Source: Sphingomonas sp. URHD0057
GTDB taxonomy: Bacteria; Pseudomonadota; Alphaproteobacteria; Sphingomonadales; Sphingomonadaceae
Length of the DNA: 64,000 nucleotides
Assembly (NCBI RefSeq): GCF_000620665.1
Contig: NZ_KK211162.1
Location: forward strand, 248,001-312,000
Direction of reading: 5' to 3'
This document shows positions 6,798 to 13,757 of the stretch, piece by piece; positions within the stretch are counted from its first letter, which is position 1; every line of letters starts with the position of its first letter. The notes beneath the pieces are model-generated. The model was not told the DNA's origin. It did not search any database and saw nothing but the letters and a program-made list of their open reading frames with translations. The translations under genes and the position numbers were made by a program.

Positions 6798-7063
6798 GCC
6801 GCTTCCCGATCATCGACCGGCTCGACGCTGCGCTTGAGAAGGTCCGCGCGCGTCAGATGGAAGTGCGCGCGATCTATCTCACCGCCGAGGATCACGACAA
6901 GCTTGACCGCGCCGAATCCGCTCGATGGAAGCGCAAGGTCAGCGTCCTCGAATATCTCGGCCATCAGATCAGGCGCGGCGAGCAGTCGCGCATCTATTCG
7001 ACACACGGCGTCGGCGTGGCGGTCGCGGCTAAGGTCAGCCCGCGCGTCAGGCTTGCGGCATGA
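6794..7063 (+). CDS. Phage early protein, unknown function
   Basis: 89 residues from the GTG at 6794 (GTGA overlap with the HNH stop). A longer in-frame reading from 6677 lies inside the HNH gene and is not credible. The N-terminal half is helical with a KVRARQMEVRAIYLTAEDHD segment. No family is recognised. Confidence 0.5.
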   Translation: MSRFPIIDRLDAALEKVRARQMEVRAIYLTAEDHDKLDRAESARWKRKVSVLEYLGHQIRRGEQSRIYSTHGVGVAVAAKVSPRVRLAA

Positions 7064-7575
7064 CGTTCCTCGGCACCAACCTTTTCGGCGAGGCGCAGCA
7101 AGCGCATCAGTCGCAGCTCCCGCCAGAGGCCAACAAGTTCCACGTCGGCAACGGCGACGACGGCAAGCATTACTGGCTGACCCCGCTCGCGCTTTATGCC
7201 GATCTGGACGCCGAGTTTCACTTCGACTTCGACCCTTGCCCGTTCCCGCTACCGGAGGGCTTCGACGGCCTGACGTGCGAGTGGGGACAGAGCAACTACG
7301 TCAACCCACCATTCGGCTCGATCACCCACCAGGGCAAGAAGAAGGGACCGACCGCTTGGGTGCGGAAGGCGATCGAGGAATGCCGCAAGGGCAAGCGCGT
7401 CGTGCTGGTCTATCCGGTCGATAAGTGGGTGCTGATGCTGATGCGCGAAATCCTCGGGGATCACGCGCACGTCCGCAATCTCGGCGATGTCAGATGGCTC
7501 GCTACTGAGGACGGATCGGCCGGCAAGGGAACGGGGCGCCACATCGCCTGCTTCATCTTGGAGCCGAGCGCATGA
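7060..7575 (+). CDS. Phage DNA N6-adenine methyltransferase (Dam family)
   Basis: 171 residues. It matches the phage Dam family: WLTP near residue 40, FDPCP at about 57-61, and the catalytic NPPF at about 82-85 (YVNPPFGS). It transfers a methyl group from S-adenosylmethionine to adenine in DNA, which commonly protects phage DNA from host restriction. It sits in the early operon between small genes, with ATGA overlaps on each side. Confidence 0.85.
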   Translation: MTFLGTNLFGEAQQAHQSQLPPEANKFHVGNGDDGKHYWLTPLALYADLDAEFHFDFDPCPFPLPEGFDGLTCEWGQSNYVNPPFGSITHQGKKKGPTAWVRKAIEECRKGKRVVLVYPVDKWVLMLMREILGDHAHVRNLGDVRWLATEDGSAGKGTGRHIACFILEPSA

Positions 7576-7769
7576 CCGCCGCCGTCCTCCGCCTCACCCC
7601 GCGCACTGTCACGAAGGACGACGTTCTCCGCGCCTACGCCGTGCATCGCGCGATGATCCTGGCCGAGGTCGACGATCCGCGCTTGCTCGACGATCCGGCG
7701 CATCAGGCCGCGAAGGAAGAGGCGCGGGAGAAGTATCTGACCGCGTACAACGATTGGGTGCGGCAATGA
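7572..7769 (+). CDS. Small phage protein, unknown function
   Basis: 65 residues, helical, with an acidic middle (ILAEVDDPRLLDDPAH). ATGA overlaps place it between Dam and the XF1762-like gene. No recognisable motif. Confidence 0.5.
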   Translation: MTAAVLRLTPRTVTKDDVLRAYAVHRAMILAEVDDPRLLDDPAHQAAKEEAREKYLTAYNDWVRQ

Positions 7770-8209
7770 GGCTGTCGGTCGCTCCCATCGACTTCGATCA
7801 AGCGGCTGCGTTCGTGCGCCTGCATCATCGCCACCACACGCCGCCCGTTGGTCACAAATTCAGCCTCGCAGCGCTGCTCGACGGCAAGCTCGTCGGCGTG
7901 GCGATCATCGGGCGCCCGGTTGCTCGCGGTCGTGACGACGGCCTGACCCTAGAAGTCACGCGCCTTTGCACCGACGGCACGAAGAACGCTTGCTCGTTCC
8001 TCTACGGCGCAGCTGCTCGGGCGGCATTCGCGCTCGGCTATCAGCGCGTCGGCACATACATTTTGAAGCGCGAGCCGGGCACGAGCCTCGCTGCGGCTGG
8101 CTGGAAACTCATCGGCGAAGTGAAGGGCCGCTCATGGTCGTGCCAATCGAGGCCGCGCACCGACAAGCATCCAACCGAGCCTAAGCTGCTTTTCGAGATC
8201 GCAGCATGA
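7766..8209 (+). CDS. XF1762-family protein, GNAT-like fold
   Basis: 147 residues from the ATG at 7766; a longer open frame upstream belongs to a shadow of Dam. Hallmarks of the XF1762 phage family are visible: FVRLHHRHHTPPVGHKFSLA at about 13-32, EVTRLCTDGTKNACSFLYGA, and RPRTDKHPTEPKL near the end. The family resembles acyltransferases, but its substrate is not known to me. The nearby Dam and DpdA-like genes raise the idea of a DNA-base acyl transfer like that of phage Mu Mom. That link is speculation. Confidence 0.7.
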   Translation: MRLSVAPIDFDQAAAFVRLHHRHHTPPVGHKFSLAALLDGKLVGVAIIGRPVARGRDDGLTLEVTRLCTDGTKNACSFLYGAAARAAFALGYQRVGTYILKREPGTSLAAAGWKLIGEVKGRSWSCQSRPRTDKHPTEPKLLFEIAA

Positions 8210-9645
8210 GTGCCGAGCTCGCCATCGTGGAAAGCGAACCTCAGCCGCTCGCGGTCATCGAGGAAGAGGCGGCGCTGCTCGGCGCGCTGATGTACGAGCC
8301 GATGCTGATCGATCCGATTGCCGATCGTGTCGCGCCCGCCGATTTCTTCGAGCCGCTTCACGCCCGCATCTTCACCGCGATCCTGTCGCTGCATGGCGAA
8401 GGCAGGACCGCCAACGCGATCACGCTCAAGCCATATTTCGACAGCGACGCGGCCATGAAGGACGTCGGCGGGGTCGGTTATCTCGCACAGCTCGGCGGCA
8501 CTTATGGCGTCATGGGCGTGGTCGGTGCGCGCGACTTCGCCAATCAGATCGCCGACCACGCCAAGCGCCGCCGACTGATCGACGGGATGCTGGAGGTCAT
8601 CGCCGACGCGCGCTCCGTCGAGGTGCCGGTCGCCAAGCTGGTCGATGCCGCCGACTCCGCGCTTACCCAGGCGCTCAGCCGCGCCAATGCCGTCGCCACC
8701 GTCAGCCTGGCGCAATCGTTCGACACGACCCTGAAGGCGATCGAGGACGAAGCTGCAGGGCTTGGACCGCAGGGTATCCACATCGACGGGCTCAAGGACT
8801 TCAACGAGCTGACCGGCGATCTGAGGCGCGGCGAGCTGATGTACCTCGGCGGACGCCCGAGCATGGGCAAGACGGCATTGGCTGTCGAGCTCGCGCTTGG
8901 CGCTGCGAAGGCTGGCAACGGCGTGTCGGTCATCAGCCTCGAAATGCGCGCCGCCGAGCTGACCACCCGGGCGATGACGACGCTGGTTTACGATCACGGC
9001 TCGTCCTGTCCGACCTTCGAGAATGTGCGCCGCGGCCGACTTGCTGAACGCGACAAGGACTTGCTCAAGCTGGCGCGTCGGCAAATCGCCGAGTGGCCGC
9101 TGCTCATCACGGATCCGCCCTCGCTCAGCATCGGCCGGCTCGCGATGGAGATTCGCCGTCACCGCCGCCGTCTCATCGCCGCGGGGCAAACGCTCGACCT
9201 GGTGATCGTCGACTATCTCGGCCTCATCAAAGGCTCCGACCCGCGCGCCAAGCGATACGAGGAGGTCGGCGAGATCAGCCGCACGCTCAAGGCGGTCGCC
9301 AAGGAATGCGACGTCGCGATGATCGTGCTCGCTCAGCTCAACCGCGAATGCGAGCGCCGCGACGACAAGCGGCCCATGCTGTCGGACCTGCGCGACGCCG
9401 GCGACATCGAGCAGGACGCCGACCATGTGATGTTCGTCTATCGCGACGAATATTATCTCGAGCGCTCAGAGCCCGACGTTCACGACAAGAAGCGCGCCGA
9501 GTGGGACATCGCGATAGGCCATGCGCGCGACAAGATCGAGCTGATCGCGGCCAAGGTGCGCAACGGGCGCGTCGGCAAGCGGACCTGCCATTTCTACGGC
9601 AAGCATCAGGCGGTGCGGGCCTCTGATTATTTGAGCGGCCGGTGA
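8206..9645 (+). CDS. Replicative DNA helicase, DnaB family
   Basis: 479 residues, the usual DnaB length. The N-terminal domain (about 1-150) begins with EEEAALLGALM. The RecA-like domain has Walker A GGRPSMGKT at about 215-223 and Walker B-type LDLVIVDYLGL. The motif DLRDAGDIEQDADHVMFVYR is typical of DnaB. It unwinds the fork during phage replication. A DnaA-domain-IV protein (11470) and a DUF1376 protein (10718) downstream could recruit it to the origin. Confidence 0.92.
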   Translation: MSAELAIVESEPQPLAVIEEEAALLGALMYEPMLIDPIADRVAPADFFEPLHARIFTAILSLHGEGRTANAITLKPYFDSDAAMKDVGGVGYLAQLGGTYGVMGVVGARDFANQIADHAKRRRLIDGMLEVIADARSVEVPVAKLVDAADSALTQALSRANAVATVSLAQSFDTTLKAIEDEAAGLGPQGIHIDGLKDFNELTGDLRRGELMYLGGRPSMGKTALAVELALGAAKAGNGVSVISLEMRAAELTTRAMTTLVYDHGSSCPTFENVRRGRLAERDKDLLKLARRQIAEWPLLITDPPSLSIGRLAMEIRRHRRRLIAAGQTLDLVIVDYLGLIKGSDPRAKRYEEVGEISRTLKAVAKECDVAMIVLAQLNRECERRDDKRPMLSDLRDAGDIEQDADHVMFVYRDEYYLERSEPDVHDKKRAEWDIAIGHARDKIELIAAKVRNGRVGKRTCHFYGKHQAVRASDYLSGR

Positions 9646-10718
9646 ATGACCTGGCTCCATATCCCCTCCGAATGCTTGAGCTCTGCGCTGGCACTGGAAT
9701 GCTCGGCCTCGGCGTTGAAGTGGCGCTACCGGGCGCTCGCACGGTCTGCCACGTCGAGAGGGAAGCATATGCCGCCGCGATCCTGGCATCGCGCATGGAA
9801 GCGGCTGAGCTGGCTCAAGCGCCTATCTGGACTGACGTTGCCACATTCGACGCTCGCCGTTGGCGCGGAGCGGTGGATTGCGTCCTGTCGGGGGATCCCT
9901 GCCAGCCCAACAGCGTCGCGGGAAAGCGCGGCGGAGCAGACGATGATCGGTTCCTCATCGATCAGGTCGTTCGCATCTTCGACGAGAGCGGGGCTGGTCG
10001 TCTCTTCCGAGAGAACGTCACGGGGAACGCCGACGGGCAGCTCGCCGCATTGGTCCCGGCACTGGAGCGATTGGGTTGCCGCGTTGCGGTCGGAATATGG
10101 CGCGCGTCCGACGTCGGCGCTGCTCACGGACGCGAGCGATTGTTCGTCATGGCCGACCGCGAAGGCGATCAGCGGTGGAGCGAACAGCAGGCGCGAGGAG
10201 CGCGGAGCCGGCGGTCCGGACCTGCAGGAAGTGGTCAAGGAATGGCGGACGCCCGCGGCGCACGACCCGGGGATCACCACGGAGCGACTGAAGGATGCGG
10301 AGGGTCGGACGTGGACACCGGGCCAACGAGCCTACGACCGCGAGACGGGCCGCATGGCGCAGACGGGCCTGACGCAGCAAGCCGAGACTTGGCCGACGCC
10401 AATGGCGGGTTCGCCGGGAACGGAAAGCTACAACGAAGCGGGCAACAGCGACTTCTCGCGGAGGGCAATGGAACTTGCGGAATCGCCTTCGCTCCAGGCC
10501 CAAACGACGGACGCTGGCCAACCATCCTTGAGCGAGCGCCGCACCTTGAACCCGCTGTTCGTCGAATGGCTGATGGGCTGGCCAATCGGGTGGACCGCCT
10601 CCGAGCCTGTGGAAACGGGGTTGTCCCATTGGCTGCAGCTTATGCGTGGCGTTCTCTCGACGCTCTGCTCGCCGAGGGAAGAGACGCAGGGGAAATTGCT
10701 ATGACGGAGGCCGCATAA
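9642..10718 (+). CDS. DNA C5-cytosine methyltransferase
   Basis: 358 residues. Motif I MLELCAGTGMLGLG (about 11-24), motif IV DPCQPNS with catalytic Cys87, and motif VI FRENV (about 123-126). Motif IX-X-like end RVDRLRACGNGVVPLAAA (about 314-331). The middle, roughly 170-280, has an odd Gly/Ala/Arg/Asp-rich composition. That stretch overlaps a second reading frame that also carries methyltransferase-type sequence (see the separate entry). It should protect phage DNA from cytosine-sensitive restriction. ATGA and TAATG overlaps tie it into the early operon. Confidence 0.8.
   Translation: MNDLAPYPLRMLELCAGTGMLGLGVEVALPGARTVCHVEREAYAAAILASRMEAAELAQAPIWTDVATFDARRWRGAVDCVLSGDPCQPNSVAGKRGGADDDRFLIDQVVRIFDESGAGRLFRENVTGNADGQLAALVPALERLGCRVAVGIWRASDVGAAHGRERLFVMADREGDQRWSEQQARGARSRRSGPAGSGQGMADARGARPGDHHGATEGCGGSDVDTGPTSLRPRDGPHGADGPDAASRDLADANGGFAGNGKLQRSGQQRLLAEGNGTCGIAFAPGPNDGRWPTILERAPHLEPAVRRMADGLANRVDRLRACGNGVVPLAAAYAWRSLDALLAEGRDAGEIAMTEAA
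10150..10704 (+). other. Second open frame inside the cytosine methyltransferase gene with methyltransferase-type sequence
   Basis: The +1 frame is open from 9646 to 10704 without a stop. From about 10150 on it reads like the C-terminal part of another phage cytosine-methyltransferase lineage: SGGANSRREERGAGGPDLQE, EWRTPAAHDPGI, GLTQQAETWPTP and LNPLFVEWLMGWPIGWT. The 9642 frame reads RMADGLANRVDRLRACGNGV over the same bases as the last motif. Either frame could end the protein if a frameshift occurred. Nothing marks a programmed slip site. Confidence 0.45.
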
Positions 10719-11878: not shown

Positions 11879-12235
11879 ATGAATACCATCCGGACAAATC
11901 GCGCGCGCGCCAAGTTCCTCGCGACACTCGCAAAACACTGCAACGTCGCCGAGGCGTGCCGCTCTGCAAACATTAGCCGCTCGGCAGTTTATGACTGGCG
12001 AAGCGATGATAAGGCCTTCGCCAAGGACTGGGATGACGCCGAGCAAGAGGCTGCCGACAAGCTCGAAAAGGTCGCCTGGGATCGAGCGACCGGTACCGAC
12101 AAATCGGACCGCATGCTGGAGATCCTGCTCAAGGCTCATCGGCCGGAGAAATTCACCGACAAGGTCAAAGTCGAAGTAACGGACTCGGCGCGCGAGTTGG
12201 AGGAAGCCCGCAAACGGGCACGCAATGGGCGCTAA
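11879..12235 (+). CDS. Terminase small subunit
   Basis: 118 residues. N-terminal HTH (HCNVAEACRSANISRSAVYD at about 20-39), then a helical region and a short C-terminal tail (RELEEARKRARNGR). The order small-then-large terminase with an 11-bp overlap is standard. It recognises the packaging site on phage DNA. Confidence 0.8.
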   Translation: MNTIRTNRARAKFLATLAKHCNVAEACRSANISRSAVYDWRSDDKAFAKDWDDAEQEAADKLEKVAWDRATGTDKSDRMLEILLKAHRPEKFTDKVKVEVTDSARELEEARKRARNGR

Positions 12236-13757
12236 TCTGCAGCGCGAGATCATTGCTGACCTTGGCTCGTTCACCCACGACCCGCTTGGTTTCGTGCTGT
12301 GGGCGTATCCTTGGGGCGTCAAGGGAACGCCGCTCGAGAACGAGGATGGGCCAGACACATGGCAACGAGAGCAGCTCGCCGCCATCGGGGACAGGCTGAC
12401 GGCCGATCCGTTCGCTCACGTTTTCGACCTGACGGCGAGCGGCCACGGCATCGGCAAGTCGGCCGAGGTGTGCTGGGTCAACCACTGGGCACTGATGACG
12501 CATGAAGACACGCGCGGCGTGATCACCGCCAACACCGAGACGCAACTGAGGACCAAGACATGGGCGGAGATGGCGAAGTGGCACTCTCTGCTCAACTTCG
12601 AGCTTCTGCGCCAGCTGTTCATCCTCGAGGGCACCAGCATCCATTCCAGCCAGCCAGGGCACGAGCGCACATGGCGGATCGATGCTATCCCGTGGAGCGA
12701 GAGAAATCCGGAGGCCTTCGCCGGACTGCATAACGCGGGCAAGCGCATCATCCTCACGTTCGATGAGGCGTCAGCGATCGCGGACACCATTTGGGAGGTC
12801 GCTGAAGGCGCGCTGACTGATGCCGACACCGAGATCCTGTGGCTCGGCTACGGCAACCCAACGCGTAACACCGGGCGGTTCAAGGAGGGCATCGCGGGCC
12901 GCCATCGCCACCGCTTCACGCACCGTCAGATCGACAGCCGCGAGGTCAAGCGTACCAACAAGACGCTGCTCAAGTCGTGGATTGATACCTATGGCGATGA
13001 CAGCGATTTCGTGCGGGTCCGCGTCAAGGGCCAGTTTCCGCGGGCGAGCTCGATGCAATTCATCGCCTCCGATCTGGCGCAGCAGGCGCGTACTCGTGAG
13101 GTCCCGTCCGGCCTCGTCACAGACCCCATCATCTTCGGGGTCGACTGTGCCCGCTTTGGCGATGATCACTCGACCTTGGCCATCCGCAAGGGGCGGGACG
13201 GGCGCTCGGTGCCGTGGAAGCGGTGGCACAAACAGGACGCGATGCTCCTCGCCGGCGATATCGCGCTGGAAGCCGAGCGGTGGAAGCCCGACGCGATCTT
13301 CGTCGATGCCGGCAACATCGGGGCGGCGGTCGTCGATCGGTTGCGCCAGTTGTTCAGCAGCGGCGGTGGGCGACCAAAGTTTCCCGTTTATGAGGTGTGG
13401 TTCGGCGGTGCTGGACGGGAGGCGACCTGGTCTGCCGATATGCGTGTCAAGACGATGAACAAGCGATCGGAGATGTGGACGAACATGCGCGCCTGGCTGG
13501 CAACGGGCGCGATACCCGACGACGATGACATTGAGACTGACCTGACGGGCGTCGAATATGGTTACGGACCTGACCAGACCAGCATCCAGCTCGAGAAGAA
13601 GGAGCACATGAAGGCGCGCGGCCTGGCCTCTCCGGACGATGCAGATGCGCTCGCATGCACTTTTGCCGAGCCGGTCATGCCGCGCGTGCCGAAGCATCGC
13701 GATCCTGCCGCCTATATCGAAGGCACAAACTACGACCGATTTGCGGAGCTGGGGTGA
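12225..13757 (+). CDS. Terminase large subunit
   Basis: 510 residues. ATPase domain with Walker A TASGHGIGKS at about 70-79 and Walker B-like IILTFDEASAI. Nuclease domain with IIFGVDCARFGDD, FVDAGNIGAAVVDRL and DDADALACTFA, the acidic residues of the RNase H-type nuclease. It cuts and pumps DNA into the prohead. The gene is complete. Confidence 0.92.
   Translation: MGANLQREIIADLGSFTHDPLGFVLWAYPWGVKGTPLENEDGPDTWQREQLAAIGDRLTADPFAHVFDLTASGHGIGKSAEVCWVNHWALMTHEDTRGVITANTETQLRTKTWAEMAKWHSLLNFELLRQLFILEGTSIHSSQPGHERTWRIDAIPWSERNPEAFAGLHNAGKRIILTFDEASAIADTIWEVAEGALTDADTEILWLGYGNPTRNTGRFKEGIAGRHRHRFTHRQIDSREVKRTNKTLLKSWIDTYGDDSDFVRVRVKGQFPRASSMQFIASDLAQQARTREVPSGLVTDPIIFGVDCARFGDDHSTLAIRKGRDGRSVPWKRWHKQDAMLLAGDIALEAERWKPDAIFVDAGNIGAAVVDRLRQLFSSGGGRPKFPVYEVWFGGAGREATWSADMRVKTMNKRSEMWTNMRAWLATGAIPDDDDIETDLTGVEYGYGPDQTSIQLEKKEHMKARGLASPDDADALACTFAEPVMPRVPKHRDPAAYIEGTNYDRFAELG

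Follow-up and report, generated by a model that had tools for sequence, protein, structure and literature searches.

The motifs of C5-cytosine DNA methyltransferases are numbered here from general knowledge of these enzymes. Their target-recognition region makes up a small domain together with motif IX, and motif X packs on the large domain. The smaller chain of the two-chain enzyme M.EcoHK31I (YGGCCR), 176 amino acids long, is nested in another frame of the gene for the larger chain. According to PMC3404938, the larger chain contains motifs I–VIII and X, motif IX is on the other chain, and the predicted target-recognition domain of EcoHK31I is placed in the larger subunit; M.AquI (CYCGRG) is a C5 enzyme in two chains split around the variable region, and fragments of C5 enzymes are able to complement. 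Here we analyze a locus at positions 9642–10718 of a 64,000-nucleotide stretch of Sphingomonas sp. URHD0057 (contig NZ_KK211162.1, 248,001–312,000, forward strand; hereafter the window, in which positions are counted). The locus probably comprises two fully overlapping same-strand genes for two subunits of one C5-cytosine DNA methyltransferase, a reading to which we assign, from sequence analysis, a probability of about 0.82. We refer to frame 0, the frame of 9642, as alpha and to the +1 frame as beta. Both frames are conserved, their conserved motifs are complementary, and their starts are adjacent.

Beta begins beside alpha, spans nearly all of it and has 352 residues, compared with 176 for the second chain of M.EcoHK31I. 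Yet on the best reading the motifs are divided much as in that enzyme, with I–VIII and X on the large chain and IX on the second. The recognition region is constrained in beta only, whereas PMC3404938 puts the predicted target-recognition domain of EcoHK31I on the larger chain. The locus shares with M.AquI the split around the variable region, but the small chain of AquI has both IX and X, and here motif X is on alpha. The locus is not filed as a member of the M.EcoHK31I type, the comparison being with the description of that system. The parts of the locus are as follows.

9642..10718, + strand: alpha gene, frame 0, GTG start, 358 amino acids; putative C5-cytosine methyltransferase subunit with motifs I–VIII and X
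9646..10704, + strand: beta gene, +1 frame, ATG start, 352 amino acids, fully overlapping; target-recognition region and motif IX
9642..9648, + strand: shared start site, with alpha GTG at 9642–9644, the TGA of the upstream gene at 9643–9645 and beta ATG at 9646–9648
9646..9666, + strand: conserved beta N-terminal peptide MTWLHIP (consensus M-x-W-L-Y/H-V/I-P)
9669..10166, + strand: alpha catalytic domain, motifs I to VIII (PCQ 9897–9905, ENV 10011–10019, RERLF 10131–10145); its beta reading is a nearly stop-free segment under weak constraint
10072..10545, + strand: beta target-recognition region with WPTP-type repeats, supported by substitution patterns by frame; its alpha reading (about 10230–10484) is a low-confidence linker whose own constraint is undetectable
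10546..10596, + strand: beta motif IX, LNPLFVEWLMGWPIGWT
10494..10691, + strand: alpha C-terminal segment with motif X (GNGVVP 10611–10628), overlapping beta motif IX and the beta C terminus; both frames are constrained here

A preliminary description of this DNA had noted that the 9642 frame and the +1 frame are both open, which holds over 9642–10718 and 9646–10704, respectively; the third reading frame contains many stops. Frame 0 ends in RVDRLRACGNGVVP. The +1 frame reads WPT at 10150, followed by GGPDLQE, EWRTPAAHDPGI and FVEWLMGWPIGWT (10558–10596); the last three, also noted earlier, were found again in the translation. The +1 protein had been placed from about 10150 onward; its motifs do lie there, but its gene begins at 9646, beside the alpha start.

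Stop codons and frame relation across loci

The +1 frame was compared across two sets of loci, with expected stop numbers calculated from synonymous codon shuffles of alpha. The first set was chosen mostly with the +1 protein and includes repeats of the same contigs. Because this selection is a possible source of bias, a second set was chosen by the alpha N domain alone, as the best 80 of at least 538 relatives; the query used for it was derived from the first set, so that it samples the nearest relatives and not all C5 enzymes. Within the N domain, 11 stops in the +1 frame were counted in the first set against 163.3 expected (76 loci, 65 stop-free), and 12 against 190.7 in the N-domain-picked set (80 loci, 74 stop-free). 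The 20 N-domain-picked loci below 50% GC contain 1 stop where 59.7 were expected. In a profile along the gene, the +1 frame has from alpha residue ~15 on 1 stop in about 11,600 codons against about 135 expected. 3′ of the N domain the first set has 51 against 156.4 (75 loci), a count that includes beta's own stop in many loci.

The controls show no such deficit. The +1 frames of 145 flanking open reading frames (ORFs) contain 744 stops against 711.2 expected, and those of 27 ordinary single-frame C5 genes contain 134 against 120.0, with no gene stop-free; the latter come from genomes of the host's bacterial family (27 of 30 loci, 3 unparsed ones being dropped). The +2 frame of the N-domain-picked set is at expectation (532 against 528.7). 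High-GC genes often show long open alternative frames, and the +1 frame could be untranslated, its openness reflecting GC content together with conservation of the frame-0 protein. This is contradicted by the shuffles, the low-GC loci, the neighboring ORFs and the ordinary C5 genes, which rule out chance openness in GC-rich DNA, and also by the middle region, where frame 0 is the unconstrained frame (see below). We consider this explanation very improbable.

The relation between the two frames is stable. Beta is in +1 relative to the alpha N domain in 85 of the 86 first-set loci with both matches. The beta C terminus is in +1 in 77 of the 80 N-domain-picked loci, two of the others having no beta match and one another frame relation. 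Loci from bacterial genomes picked by the beta motif show the +1 relation in 78 of 80 cases, with record titles that include Alpha- and Gammaproteobacteria, Verrucomicrobia, Acidobacteria, Myxococcus, Chloroflexi and Patescibacteria. Across 226 loci with different N-domain sequences, among which near-identical loci remain, both frames are open through the gene in 209 and alpha is interrupted in 13. Set aside before this count were 11 repeated N-domain sequences, 5 loci without a beta match, 2 without an N-domain match and 3 with another frame relation (L013, L152, L207).

A scan for frame-0 stops identified nine rows with 4–14 such stops between motifs VIII and X, in which beta is stop-free and motif X is kept: L033 and L094 (one contig), L042 and L050 (close to that contig), L060, L102, L184, L190 and L191. 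The alpha linker thus seems dispensable as protein, since these rows have stops in it together with an intact beta and motif X. L173, L210 and L217 have one frame-0 stop each, that of L210 within the N domain, beside the nine rows with at least four. The scan left 42 of 238 loci unscored because the motif X pattern was not matched (34 with and 8 without frame-0 stops), and its beta stop counts include codons 5′ of the beta start, for which the 226-locus count is preferred.

Other layouts were also observed. L033, L042, L050, L060, L184, L190 and L191 have a three-piece layout: an alpha that stops shortly past motif VIII, an intact beta, and motif X in a frame-0 stretch of its own further on. 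In L162 and L166 alpha is open, and over the N domain the beta frame of each contains 4 stops; there beta may have an internal start, as in EcoHK31I. L009, from the same contig as L006, is 93% identical to the window in the N domain and only 43% in the C-terminal part of beta, likely reflecting a swap or fast divergence of the recognition region.

The frame under constraint

Mismatches were sorted by frame-0 codon position. In the N domain their rates are.213/.128/.363 for positions 1, 2 and 3, the ordinary pattern for alpha. In the middle region they are.302/.138/.172, with position 1, the beta wobble position, changing most, and in the last 170 nt they are.200/.085/.229, a pattern that shows constraint on both frames. 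Constraint switches sharply from alpha to beta right after motif VIII. Fourfold-degenerate sites give the same picture: for alpha the rates of change are 0.298 within the N domain and 0.067 in the middle, and for beta the middle rate is 0.419 (95 mutually non-independent pairs with data in both regions). The N-domain rate of 0.298, being below 0.419, suggests a mild beta constraint there too. A count centered on the window gave 0.306/0.167/0.220 in the recognition region (29 loci), which agrees on thinner data; its phase is set by the first column of each alignment rather than by the N domain.

These patterns bear on much of the preliminary description. The odd composition it had pointed out in the middle of frame 0, rich in Gly, Ala, Arg and Asp, falls in the stretch where the other frame is the constrained one. 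The same bases do give both endings, and both endings are constrained. Selection at the codon level, which it had proposed to compare between frames, is not confined to the 9642 frame, and the dual coding it had raised is strongly supported by the stop depletion and the per-frame constraint.

A programmed ribosomal frameshift after motif VIII, joining the first half of alpha to the recognition region and motif IX of beta, would place the junction exactly where the constrained frame changes; in L033, L042, L050, L184, L190 and L191 frame 0 moreover stops just after motif VIII and the +1 frame continues. In 209 of the 226 loci, however, both frames are open over the junction, leaving no stop to bypass, and the window itself has no stop there, so that the combination of a slippery site and a stop is absent. 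The codons before the six stops are AAC or GAC, followed by TGA, which are not of the slippery kinds we know, and the heptamers resembling X_XXY_YYZ in the window gene, the only site type scanned, lie away from the junction (9920, 10499 and 10690). The fused chain would be without motif X, and the start codon of beta and the near-absence of +1 stops back to alpha residue ~15 would be left unaccounted for. We therefore regard a frameshift as unlikely. A slippage product, which the preliminary description had also entertained, is disfavored by the conserved start of beta and its almost stop-free frame from there on.

Start sites and the proposed division of the enzyme

A beta start followed by a peptide of the M-x-W-L-Y/H-V/I-P type is present in 67 of 78 first-set loci (ATG 48, GTG 14, TTG 5). 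In 65 of these 67 the alpha start codon lies 2 or 5 nt downstream of that of beta, overlapping the beta Trp codon; in the window and its close relative L009 the alpha start is at −4 of that of beta, with no start at +2 or +5. Over the four codons after the Trp, mean entropy is 0.36 at the alpha wobble and 1.48 at the beta wobble positions, and the start peptide is therefore selected in the beta frame. For most first-set loci this conserved 5′ start rules out an internal beta start of the kind found in EcoHK31I. A stop codon lies immediately 5′ of the beta start in 29 of the 67 loci. Open frames of 80 codons or more run up to precisely that point in 20 of the 67. These observations suggest reinitiation after the upstream gene.

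Alpha matches PF00145, the C5-cytosine methyltransferase domain, over residues 10–176 (1.3e-18), and the motifs found run from I to VIII plus X, in keeping with the earlier assignment of the 9642 frame to the C5 methyltransferases. PCQ (motif IV) and ENV (motif VI), which mark the catalytic domain, are invariant in 16 aligned rows, and G324, N325 and V327 of motif X (GNxV) are invariant in 38. The target-recognition domain and motif IX, expected in the same chain for PF00145, are both in the +1 frame. The AlphaFold model of alpha is confident for most of the N domain (block means of 82–98 over residues 11–80 and 101–180) and for the helix that follows motif X (96 and 87 over 331–350) and falls to 32–39 over 201–280, the frame-0 reading of the recognition region; residues 197–281 and 305–316 are below 50. 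It superposes on M.HhaI with Z 20.3 and an rmsd of 3.0 over 198 residues, aligned through HhaI residue 327.

Searched separately, as the preliminary description had advised, both frames match PHROG families, so that homologues of the +1 frame do exist. Alpha matches families 29583 (4.1e-47) and 363 (4.1e-43). Beta matches 27243 (4.8e-22), filed under unknown function, and 1008 (8e-13, residues 82–328), filed as DNA methyltransferase; of 38 beta proteins, 37 match the former and 38 the latter. PHROG 363/29583 and 1008/27243, each matching one frame strongly, are thus filed as separate families. The proposal of two enzyme lineages fares less well: what had been taken for another lineage is the beta frame of genes like this one, sometimes annotated in place of alpha.

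A single-frame homologue is found in Mycobacterium phage IrishSherpFalk. Its gp71 contains motifs I–VIII, LPTP-type repeats, RLNPAFPEWMMGWPTGWV and IGNGVVP, and so has the same N domain, repeats and motif IX and X text as alpha and beta together, but in one frame and one chain, with stops in its +1 frame. In single comparisons, the alpha profile matches its N domain (E 9.3e-32) and the beta profile its motif IX region over 26 columns (E 9.8e-13). Streptomyces phage Euratis has an AquI-like appearance: gp33 terminates past motif VIII, and IX, X and the recognition region belong to gp34, which lies in +1 and briefly overlaps it (E 3.1e-5 and a probability of 73% in a profile match). Single-frame, split and overlapping layouts therefore all exist in phages; any direction of change among them can be proposed only by inference. 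In L292, the single-frame mycobacteriophage gene, beta-like text stands in the +1 frame upstream of the LPTP repeats (SETWPKTGYMSGG, then SLLPTPETG), perhaps as the trace of a frame change.

Beta could instead be a real overlapping gene with another role, such as a regulator or inhibitor, rather than a methyltransferase subunit, and its lack of a Pfam match, and of a fold match among the 2 chains compared, would fit this. Alpha, however, has no constrained recognition region or motif IX and beta has exactly these, and the single-frame homologue carries both parts in one chain. Such a role seems to us a little less likely even than a frameshift. An out-of-frame second protein in a phage methylase gene is also described in PMC11855218, for the ShiLan-domain HNH endonuclease; that protein is an inserted homing endonuclease and not a part of a methyltransferase.

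On the two-subunit reading, alpha would supply the S-adenosylmethionine-binding and catalytic domain (motifs I–VIII) and the motif X helix, and beta the target-recognition region and motif IX. Translation of both proteins would begin at the shared start site and depend in part on reinitiation, the TGA of the upstream DnaB-like gene standing directly before the beta ATG, and general knowledge of C5 enzymes suggests that they would assemble into one active enzyme. Each chain would have a passenger half, in alpha a floppy linker over the recognition region and in beta a nearly stop-free, weakly constrained stretch over motifs I–VIII. The arrangement most likely began as an enzyme encoded in one frame, which frame changes ahead of the recognition region and between IX and X would have divided. 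The enzyme would most likely serve to protect phage DNA from restriction.

Several results weigh against this reading. Beta is interrupted in 4 of the 226 loci, and phage ctjLE16 has a single +1 stop within the N domain. Nor does the reading account for a beta that keeps some 140 residues at its N terminus. The start pattern is missing in 11 of the 78 first-set loci, and only 25 of the 80 N-domain-picked loci fit a similar one; many of the 55 that fail show, by eye, a variant of it, for example MWILPK or MSWLF. Beta matched no family in Pfam or NCBIfam, none of 20 beta members searched matched Pfam, and the beta profile found no match among PDB sequences up to E 10. Modeled alone, beta is poor (pLDDT 53), and a fold search with the model, comparing 2 chains, gave no match, which is no sign of a new fold. 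When compared by hhalign with 13 ordinary C5 C-termini, the beta profile aligned at motif IX with a probability of 1.5%; the alpha profile aligned at motif X with 0.5%. The shuffle null is also imperfect, as the +2 frame is mildly stop-poor in the first set (353 against 427.9), in the flanking ORFs (768 against 901.5) and in the ordinary C5 genes (171 against 220.5); the +1 deficit far exceeds that of +2 and is not present in the controls.

Gene setting, annotation and significance

The locus has a DnaB-like helicase gene upstream (8206–9645, Pfam match) and a DUF1376 gene on its other side; 12225–13754 has a weak terminase match (0.00074, below the cut-off). An IMG/VR viral contig of 45,114 bases contains the same gene at 100% identity, so that the setting is most likely a prophage. 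Just upstream, 7060–7572 encodes a Dam-type adenine methyltransferase (PF05869, 1.3e-7) and 7754–8206 weakly matches the Mom family of DNA-modification proteins (PF25680, 0.00086, below the cut-off); in view of these neighbors, the prophage may have its DNA-modification genes in a cluster. A second C5 methyltransferase is encoded by the host genome at C4:262444–263472, and PF00145 matches it over its whole length (8.4e-54, positions 1–321).

Annotation was surveyed in 15 named records. The C-terminal part of beta is in +1 in 14 of them, 13 without a +1 stop in the N-domain match; the remaining record, with 5 +1 stops, is a plasmid enzyme of the NgoMIV type. Among the 14 dual-frame records, which include Xanthomonas, Cronobacter and Klebsiella phages without the M-x-W start peptide, 5 give beta alone, 8 give alpha alone and 1 gives both (Xanthomonas phage PhiXhv-18). 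Only one frame is therefore annotated in 13 of 14. Synechococcus phages Ssp-JY39 and Yong-M2-251 (L001 and L281) have identical DNA over beta, yet the annotated frame differs between them. Gene callers tend to accept a single frame for any given stretch, and so one protein of a conserved pair is lost. A literature search, weak in that it covered few subscription papers and preprints and saw its sources in part, returned no description of this arrangement in phages.

These data make it likely, somewhat less so than the two-subunit reading of the locus itself, that phages, prophages and plasmids share a very widespread class of methyltransferase encoded by two completely overlapping genes of ~1 kb or more, with adjacent or overlapping starts and complementary essential parts. 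If so, few conserved overlaps between same-strand genes in double-stranded DNA phages would, to our knowledge, be as large. Databases would list a single enzyme as two families, having annotated one frame or the other, and cloning such an enzyme for testing would be expected not to succeed with the annotated frame alone. The layout also offers a clean natural case for studying the origin and persistence of fully overlapping genes, because the passenger and constrained halves separate within the gene and because single-frame, split and overlapping versions exist.

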